Positions 27,644-41,287 of a stretch of DNA of 64,000 bases are shown one piece after another. How positions within the stretch are numbered: the first letter of the stretch is position 1; every line of letters begins with the position of its first letter. The stretch covers positions 1 to 64,000 of the forward strand of contig JAJYIU010000018.1 of the NCBI GenBank assembly GCA_021789895.1, in the 5' to 3' direction. The position numbers and the translations under genes were made by a program. This stretch comes from Acidobacteriota bacterium (GTDB lineage Bacteria > Acidobacteriota > Terriglobia > Terriglobales > SCQP01). The notes under the pieces were generated by a model, which worked only from the letters and a program-made list of their open reading frames with translations, was not told where the DNA came from and made no database searches.

Positions 27644-28045
27644 CTAATTGCGCATCAACCGTTCTGTCAAACGCATTATGGTTTCTTTATCTTCCTTGCG
27701 CAGCTTTTCGTACCTTTCCAAAAGGCCTAACCCCTCCTGGCTAATGGATTTGGCCTTCGAAACCGACGTTTGTGGGATTTTTCCCCCAAACAGTTCATCG
27801 AAATATTCTGGCTCGTGCGTGCGCATTATCACGGCGATCAGTTGGCGCCGGGGACAACCCAGGACATCGGCCAAACGCAATGTCAACATCGGTGAAGGCG
27901 TGCGTTTGCCGCCTTCGATCAAACCGATATATCCGGGAGTGCGAATCCCCACCTGTTCTGCGACTTCGGTTTGAGTAAGACCGCGCTGTTCGCGCAGGTG
28001 CGCGATCAGCCGGCCAAACGTTAGGCCAGAATTGAAGTTGATCAT
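27644..28045 (-). CDS. XRE-family helix-turn-helix regulator
   Basis: A 133-residue protein. Residues about 9-63 form a HTH_3 domain (LIAHLREQRGLTQTEVAEQV, then IGLIEGGKRTPS and LADVLGC). The C-terminal half is charged and helical with no recognised domain. GGGGAAG lies eight bases before the ATG. It stands alone just outside the right 56-bp repeat and may be a remnant regulator of a mobile element or of the toxin-antitoxin-rich region that follows. No partner gene is adjacent. Confidence 0.85.
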   Translation of the reverse strand: MINFNSGLTFGRLIAHLREQRGLTQTEVAEQVGIRTPGYIGLIEGGKRTPSPMLTLRLADVLGCPRRQLIAVIMRTHEPEYFDELFGGKIPQTSVSKAKSISQEGLGLLERYEKLRKEDKETIMRLTERLMRN

Positions 28046-28318
28046 AAAAGCATCTTCCCCGTTCCAAACAATTAACGACGGTGTAGCCCGTGCAGCGCGA
28101 TGCGAGCTCAGCCTGCCATCGTCAGGGGCAGCGGACTTGTTCCGCGGATCCAGCGGCGGCTCAATGTCCGGCGGTTACTGGAAGAGACAAAACCGCAGCT
28201 CAAGACCGTAGCTCTTTTTCCACACAATTTCCTCACAATTACGTCTTAATTAGGGCCAAAACCGGGTACCAGGAGAACCGTAAGTGCATGATACGCAAGG
28301 ACCGGCCATGGTTGTACA
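28046..28318. other. Intergenic DNA without a recognisable gene
   Basis: This lies between the XRE gene start and the tRNA fragment. Only short random frames occur. It should contain the XRE promoter, but I found no convincing -35/-10 pair. Confidence 0.4.
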
Positions 28319-28361
28319 GGGTTTATGAGACCGTCGCTCTAACCACCTGAGCTACGCCGCC
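28319..28361 (-). pseudogene. 5' half of a tRNA-Met(CAU) gene, truncated after the anticodon loop
   Basis: Read on the minus strand, the sequence starts with acceptor GGCGGCG, then TA, D-stem GCTC, D-loop AGGTGGTTA, GAGC and anticodon stem-loop ACGGT-CTCATAA-ACC. These 43 nt match the 5' half of bacterial tRNA-Met. After 28319 the expected 3' stem end, variable loop and T-arm are absent, and no CGCCGCC acceptor partner is nearby. It is therefore a broken tRNA gene, which often marks a past integration or rearrangement. Confidence 0.8.
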
Positions 28362-28454: not shown

Positions 28455-28781
28455 GATGCTGGGCGAAGCGATAAGCGTCGCTGGGCTTCGTTGTTTTGTC
28501 ATGCTTTAAGCAAAACCTGCGGTTTTGCTATTGGCTCGGCAATCCTCATGTACGTCCATGTACACCAGGTCGCCTCGCGGCATTGCTAAAAGCAATTTCT
28601 GCGAAATTGCTATTGCGCCTCGCTCTGCTCGCGACTTCTCCTTTCGCAAAACCTTCGGTTTTGCTTGGCTTCGCCTTGGCGTTACTGAATCGCGGAGGGT
28701 CGGGACCTGACAGCAAACCCCGACCTTCCCACTCGACCTCGGCATATCTAACTCCCATCGGTGGACTCGTGGGCCGCCGCT
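28455..28781 (+). repeat. Hairpin-rich interspersed repeat, copy A
   Basis: This 327-bp block is almost the reverse complement of copy B (37692-37955). It is built of small hairpins: AGCAATTTC-GCA-GAAATTGCT-type, GCAAAACC-GCA-GGTTTTGC-type, TGTAC-ATGGAC-GTACA, and a distal hairpin CCCA-loop-TGGG containing GGTGGACT. Copy A has two extra GCAAAACC/GGTTTTGC hairpin modules missing from B. Protein-like frames across it are shared with B, but indels break them, so the element is not a gene. Confidence 0.85.
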
Positions 28782-28924
28782 GATGGATTTACGGAAGGCA
28801 TTCCACCCGCAGGCTAACTATATTTTCGAAATGCCGGCGGGGGTTGGCGAGGCGTGTGAGGCGGGGTTGGAGCGCGGTCGCAGCGATCAATCAATCCAGA
28901 TCACCAATGGAAGACGCAGCCGTT
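28782..28924. other. Short gap between repeat copy A and the toxin gene
   Basis: No gene or clear signal is seen; the two short frames here have no recognisable features. Confidence 0.4.
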
Positions 28925-29314
28925 TCAGATGGCTCGATTGTGCGGCAATAGTTTCAATCCCGGGATATCGCGGAAATCCCTGTGATTGAGCGTCCAGAAT
29001 CTGGCTTCGTGTGTAATCGCGCAAGCGGCGATGGCGAGATCCATTTCCCGGCCGCGCGCCCGCCGTAAGCCATGATAGAGTTCTGCGCTGAGTTGGGCCT
29101 CTTCGATCCCGAAAAGCACCGCCCGGCTGGCGGGTAACAGTTCTTCCTGCAGGGTCAATTCCCGTTCCCGCCGGGGACCGCGCCACCATTCATACAGCAC
29201 CAGCGACGCGATCGTGAGTGGCTCGCCTCGTGCGATATGCGCGCGCAATTCCGGCAGCCGGCGCAAATCGGCGGTGAAGCAGGCGATCAGCACCGAGGTA
29301 TCCAACATAATCAT
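28925..29314 (-). CDS. PIN-domain ribonuclease toxin (VapC-like)
   Basis: VapC toxins are Mg-dependent RNases that cut tRNA or rRNA and are held inactive by their antitoxin. The 129-residue protein has the PIN acidic residues: Asp5 (MLDTSVL), Glu42 (YEWW), Asp92 (EMDLAIAA) and Asp103 (NHRDF). Length is typical. Its start overlaps the antitoxin stop by 4 bp (ATGA), as in most vapBC operons, which supports coupled translation. It sits in the rearranged region between the tRNA fragment and the sugar-nucleotide genes. Confidence 0.92.
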   Translation of the reverse strand: MIMLDTSVLIACFTADLRRLPELRAHIARGEPLTIASLVLYEWWRGPRRERELTLQEELLPASRAVLFGIEEAQLSAELYHGLRRARGREMDLAIAACAITHEARFWTLNHRDFRDIPGLKLLPHNRAI

Positions 29315-37691: not shown

Positions 37692-37955
37692 AGCGGCGGC
37701 CCACGAGTCCACCGATGGGAGTTAGATATGCCGAGGTCGAGTGGGAAGGTCGGGGTTTCCTGTCAGGTCCCGACCCTCCGCGATTCAGTAACGCCAAGGC
37801 GAAGGGAGAAGCGAGCAGAGCGAGGCGCAATAGCAATTTCGCAGAAATTGCTTTTAGCAATGCCGCGAGGCGACCTGGTGTACATGGACGTACATGAGGA
37901 TTGCCGAGCGACGAACCAACGAAGCTATGCGACGCTTATCGCTTCGCCTAGCATC
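37692..37955 (-). repeat. Hairpin-rich interspersed repeat, copy B
   Basis: A 264-bp block, inverted relative to copy A (28455-28781) and nearly identical to it over the shared parts. It keeps the AGCAATTTC/GAAATTGCT and TGTAC/GTACA hairpins and the distal CCCA/TGGG hairpin. It lacks the two GCAAAACC/GGTTTTGC modules present in A. With A it forms a 9-kb-spaced inverted pair that could mediate inversion. Confidence 0.85.
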
Positions 37956-41185: not shown

Positions 41186-41212
41186 GGCCCGGCCGCGCGG
41201 GCCGCGGCAAAG

Positions 41213-41287
41213 CGACCTGGAAACCCCGACCTTCCCGCTCGATCGTAGCCTGGTTAACTTCCCGCGGTGGACTTGCGGGCCGCCGCT
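41213..41287 (+). repeat. Hairpin-rich repeat, degenerate short copy C in the kaiC leader
   Basis: This copy keeps only the distal end of the element, with CCCGACCTTCCC, a CTCG box, AACT and the terminal hairpin. The hairpin is CCCGC-GGTGGACTT-GCGGG, against CCCA/TGGG around the same GGTGGACT loop in copies A and B. The A-T to G-C change on both arms is compensatory. It ends 14 bp before the first kaiC ATG. Confidence 0.7.

Follow-up and report, generated by a model that had tools for sequence, protein, structure and literature searches.

A dispersed, structure-conserving element with variable hairpin modules in an acidobacterial family: a candidate for movement as folded single-stranded DNA

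Two segments of the window, that is, the whole 64,000-nucleotide stretch of DNA analysed here, match each other closely in inverted orientation and differ by small hairpin-forming insertions, which raises the questions of what kind of repeat they belong to, how it might spread, and how its hairpins come and go. The first-pass annotation described them as members of a modular hairpin-rich repeat family with gain and loss of hairpin modules, and this description is supported at the scale of the genome. In the 3.75-Mb source genome (G000, 79 contigs), the search for other copies that it called for returned 74 matches to the right end, whereas the reversed control pattern gave 2, and 58 to the left end, for which the control gave 0; after de-duplication, these correspond to ~64 distinct right-end and 52 distinct left-end flanks. 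The family is a dispersed, sharp-ended element with more than 60 copies in this genome. Membership in a known IS or an rRNA-linked sequence gained no support: no element match was found in plasmids and phages, and Rfam gave no relevant match at gathering or permissive thresholds, the weak RNase P and tRNA hits being sub-threshold and off target. The right-end pattern was absent from viral contigs, where a 17-base pattern gave two hits in unrelated sequence devoid of the element. Beyond the initial description, the family displays covarying stems, an N4-G rule at its right flank, no target duplication and an orientation bias.

The core of the element is 233 bp long and is made up of a stem-loop domain of ~120 nt (Domain I) followed by a second domain of ~90 nt (Domain II) that ends in ...CCGCCGCT. 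Both ends are sharp (left, GATGCTGGGCGAAGC; right, GTGGGCCGCCGCT); the first four bases of the left end vary in a minority of copies, and the last G of these four is invariant in all 52 left ends. Lengths range from 233 to 383 bp depending on the optional hairpin modules X1 (one to three units), X2 and X3: 264 bp with X2, 267 with X1, 294 with X2 and X3, 297 with X1 and X2, 327-328 with all three, and 355 or 383 when, in addition, X1 is doubled or tripled. Most copies diverge from the consensus by only 2-9%, which indicates that the family has been active recently. Many contigs of the genome break ~126-142 bases into a copy, as expected of an unresolved repeat, and these partial copies are thus best regarded not as truncated elements but as places where assembly stopped roughly one k-mer inside the repeat.

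Table 1. The element and neighbouring features in the window.
Feature	Position	Strand	Description
Copy A	28455-28781	+	Full element with X1+X2+X3, 327 bp
Left end GATG of copy A	28455-28458	+	Commonest left end of the family
Domain I of copy A	28458-28680	+	Long stem-loop containing the modules; base stem GCTGGGCGAAGC / CTTCGCCTTGGC
Module X1 of copy A	28501-28534	+	Hairpin 28510-28528; 0, 1, 2 or 3 units elsewhere in the family
Module X2 of copy A	28580-28616	+	Hairpin 28592-28610 (37833-37851 in copy B); optional
Module X3 of copy A	28632-28668	+	Hairpin 28646-28664; optional
Domain II of copy A	28692-28777	+	GCGG/CCGC closing stem around two inner stems
Inner stems of Domain II, copy A	28698-28725; 28728-28773	+	Hairpin GGTCGGG/CCCGACC; stem CCCAC/GTGGG
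Right flank of copy A	28782-28786	+	GATGG, four bases then G
Copy B	37692-37955	-	264 bp, with X2 as sole module; flanked by an outer-membrane beta-barrel gene and a PP-loop (tilS-like) gene
Solo diverged Domain II (right end)	~41199-41287	+	Between ftsH-like and KaiC-like genes; flank AAACG, fits the N4-G rule
Half tRNA gene	28316-28361	-	Just upstream of copy A; broken-off 5' half
Helix-turn-helix protein gene	27644-28045	-	Flanks copy A
PIN-domain protein gene	28925-29311	-	Flanks copy A

The positions and orientations first assigned to copies A and B are correct (Table 1), and dozens of further copies have exactly the same ends. The two modules reported as extra in copy A are X1 and X3, whose hairpins occur nowhere else in the window (chance expectation, 0.02-0.05 matches), and the hairpin common to both copies is X2. 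As for the surroundings of copy A, its flanking genes are a possible toxin and regulator; the half tRNA gene resembles tRNA-Met around the CAT anticodon, scores 19.5 bits with the Rfam tRNA model, which is sub-threshold, and is not reported as a tRNA by ARAGORN.

X1 expands in tandem as a 28-bp unit present in one to three copies, and X2 is itself optional, since 14 of the 40 complete copies, 233-235 bp long, lack all modules. Same-style hairpin modules are found at matching positions in genomes G001 and G004. A pair of copies in paralogous segments, L020 (contig C3) and L142 (contig C48), is informative in this respect. They represent the same insertion, with matching flanks on both sides and private changes in common at alignment positions 4, 111, 179 and 227, and one of them harbors X1x3+X2+X3 while the other has no module, indicating that modules change in place. 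Only occupied paralogues of this site were found. Because the private change at position 111 falls between the X2-linked and the X3-linked differences, this outcome requires a minimum of two distinct exchange tracts, or else independent gains or losses. Module state is moreover linked to substitutions beside each module. Of the proposal that modules move in and out as units, the change of module content at a fixed site is thus confirmed, while free insertion of hairpins fits less well: the private substitution between two exchanged segments and the module-linked adjacent substitutions are better accounted for by short gene-conversion tracts between copies. The segment shared by L020 and L142 has at least three occurrences, located at contig ends of the genome, with ~85-97% identity, the third being L141 on contig C15; it includes this insertion of the element and, downstream, sequence rich in repeats (AACGCGGACGAAACAGAC). 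In G000, GCAATTCCTGCGGAATTGC hairpins also form tandem arrays outside the element, with a period of 134 bp at L179 (4070-4522) and as short hairpin strings at L192 (8140-8290).

The flanks of the copies provide indications about insertion. Target duplication was not detected, the longest string shared by the two flanks averaging 3.75 bases, compared with 3.47 for shuffled pairs, and comparison of the ends by eye revealed no inverted match of 15-30 bp. The right flank conforms to a CT-N4-G pattern, with G in 62 of 63 independent flanks of the source genome (p ~1e-32), A or C at the following base in 53 of 63 (p ~1e-7), and A or G as the first base of N4. The N4-G rule is also obeyed by 15 of the 17 copies of G004 and G008, which belong to another genus. 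Left flanks have no conserved base. Joining the flanks across copies restored reading frames no more often than in shuffled pairs, indicating that copies sit between genes, for whose direction they have no clear preference. Neither excision products nor circles were observed, nor any orthologous site devoid of the element.

Conservation of Domain I bears on structure more than on sequence, as its length and layout are kept across genera of the same bacterial family while its bases differ. Thus, one of its stems reads GGCGAAGC/GCTTCGCC in G000, CGCTCAGGGA/TCCCTGAGCG in G004 and GCGGGGCGA/TCGCCCCGC in G010. Among 54 distinct sequences, compensatory changes between copies and species were found in 33 of 46 base pairs, with double changes in 297 cells, compared with 109 in shuffles. 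For an alignment fitted to the model, the covariation score is 0.283, slid structures giving 0.03-0.07, and an unfitted alignment points in the same direction (0.224 against 0.04-0.07). Domain II, in which GCGG/CCGC enclose two stem-loops, has weaker covariation support. At the well-paired positions of Domain I, non-Watson-Crick cells comprise 36 G.T and 36 A.C. This equality provides no indication that selection acts on a transcript and is expected for DNA folding, although it could instead reflect neutral decay of old copies.

These observations bear on the possibility that the element is a mobile structured RNA, which would be transcribed, fold, and spread by reverse transcription or as a transposon guide RNA of the HEARO/IscB or TnpB type, the one-sided flank motif being its TAM. 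A conserved, covarying fold of 120 nt with conserved loop motifs, a flank rule restricted to the 3' side and the lack of target duplication would all suit such an RNA. However, G.U pairs are no commoner than A.C, Rfam is silent even at permissive thresholds, and searches for the nucleases found no IscB (PF14239) in six genomes, where no positive control matched, and no TnpB (PF07282) in five genomes, where positive controls did. We therefore regard this explanation as unlikely.

The copies are strongly co-oriented along contigs. According to a list compiled by hand from end-match searches, all copies face the same way in 25 of the 27 multi-copy contigs of the source genome, against 10.5 expected and a maximum of 20 in 200,000 simulations. 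Copies agree in 55 of 59 same-contig pairs, some of them 75-141 kb apart, and the longest co-oriented span reaches ~141 kb on contig C7. The two discordant contigs include that of the window, where copies A and B are opposed. In G004, the seven multi-copy contigs, as read from the table, are all co-oriented. This bias is likely tied to replication, although its direction relative to GC skew has weak support: the element strand is on the G-rich strand in 42 of 60 copies, and its relation to the GC-skew sign of the leading strand, calculated with gene-corrected third positions, yields p 0.015 in a Wilcoxon test; agreement with GC skew at the level of contigs is 20 of 32, which is not significant (sign test, p 0.22).

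Co-orientation might also be maintained by selection, if the element were a polar chromosome signal comparable to KOPS, Chi or gyrase-binding BIME, and not result from the insertion mechanism. The extent of co-orientation on contig C7 and the intergenic placement are in keeping with this idea. Nevertheless, both the divergent copies and their number are particular to each species, several members of the family have few or none, and lone Domain II fragments persist, and a polar signal thus appears highly improbable. Neither does the bias fit readily with a MITE of an ordinary DDE transposon whose parent would now be gone. Size, intergenic dispersal and absence of coding capacity match those of bacterial MITEs (PMC3733652), but the element is devoid of terminal inverted repeats and target duplication, and its co-orientation is strong, although other families with beta-clamp-binding transposases can likewise be biased in orientation (PMC5371812). 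This origin is distinctly unlikely in our opinion.

Relatives of the element have a narrow distribution. Diverged relatives are present in at least four further genera of the bacterial family, and across 399 genomes of the class the matches of model R1 were confined to that family (f1). When 84,980 species were scanned with the Domain I core, 13 hits were obtained in two acidobacterial MAGs, ZJ1.bin67 and YP1.bin64, and the 4 others correspond to the chance level, estimated at ~4. The sister genome G001 contains a second repeat family (L055, L057, L058, L060) with a loop motif (GGGACCTAAC.GGAACCCC) near-identical to that of Domain II, X2-like hairpins and the end ...GACTCGGCCGTTAACG, which may be a Domain II-only mobile element. 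In G002, loci L073, L077, L080 and L083 harbor Domain I-like hairpins without Domain II, followed by a short varying sequence and a second GGCGGGGCGA; these are possibly Domain I-only relatives.

Which enzyme might mobilize the element has been addressed by searching for candidate partners. IscB, TnpB, Y2 and Y1 proteins gained no support as partners, being either not detected in the genomes searched or distributed in a manner that does not track the element; for Y2 transposases, none was found in five genomes, where no control matched. The sole Y1 gene of the source genome is RAYT-like (L051, C40:1400-1735) and lies beside its own array of GGACGTCC palindromes. The element might then be a REP-like (BIME) sequence moved by this resident transposase, as its mosaic of intergenic palindromes and the presence of one RAYT-like gene would suggest. 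However, the GGACGTCC palindromes have only short, chance-level matches to the element; gene and array form a separate REP-like system. Furthermore, G001, G004, G005 and G008 have copies and no Y1 match, G003 has Y1 genes and no detected element, and no GTAG/GTGG foot was noted. Mobilization by the RAYT is accordingly very unlikely.

The interpretation that we favor, slightly more probable than its contrary, is that of a lineage-specific, non-autonomous mobile element that is recognized through DNA secondary structure and moves as folded single-stranded DNA in a replication-coupled manner. Such movement is indicated jointly by the lack of duplication, the folded domains near both ends, the DNA-like pairing and the uniform orientation, and IS200/IS605 elements show the same orientation effect through replication-coupled single-strand transposition (PMC5371812). 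The element strand as written would fold in its single-stranded state, which probably arises at the replication fork on the lagging-strand template. A putative enzyme acting in trans might then cut at the base of each folded domain, and the element would be joined 5' of an N4-G target. Re-amplification of species-specific master copies would explain why stems differ between genera and still pair, and homologous exchange between copies after insertion could shuffle or expand the modules in tolerant loops. The complete scenario, in which a replication-coupled single-stranded DNA family relies on a putative enzyme outside Y1/IS200 and RAYT, inserts 5' of N4-G and undergoes post-insertion module exchange, is more doubtful and is proposed tentatively. 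If correct, it would define a new kind of short parasitic element in bacteria, for which shape takes the place of terminal repeats in recognition, the target rule is simple, orientation gives a strong signal and past module exchange can be traced. Young copies, ends and a target rule are now defined and offer a concrete route to the putative transposase.

The element has features in common with several known systems. Integron attC core sites (RYYYAAC...GTTRRRY) were not seen on reading its ends. Like REP/BIME/REPIN sequences associated with RAYTs, it is palindromic, intergenic, mosaic, structure-conserving and present in many copies, but at 233-383 bp it is much longer than their 20-65-nt units, it does not lie beside the RAYT of the genome, and its ends are GATGCT... 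and ...CCGCCGCT, with no GT[AG]G foot noted. It is short, non-coding, dispersed and hairpin-forming, as are the bacterial MITEs ERIC, RUP, NEMIS and Nezha, and differs from them by its lack of terminal inverted repeats and target duplication. HEARO/IscB omega-RNA elements are structured, often ORF-less, and have a 3' flank motif on one side; the element resembles them in its structure and one-sided 3' motif, but no Rfam model matches it, searches yielded neither an IscB nor a TnpB gene, and it shows no G.U preference. Relative to IS200/IS605, it has no conserved tetra- or pentanucleotide directly 5' of its left end, and it lacks the conserved tetranucleotide that usually marks the cleaved flank itself in Y1 transposition; its right flank follows N4-G, on either strand, instead of a fixed tetranucleotide, and its ends are two large multi-stem domains, with no cognate Y1 transposase or TnpB found. 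IS200/IS605 elements have hairpins near both ends, generate no target duplication and follow replication in their orientation (PMC5371812, PMC6006769), and with them and their non-autonomous derivatives (PATEs) the element shares folded domains near both ends and insertion without target duplication.
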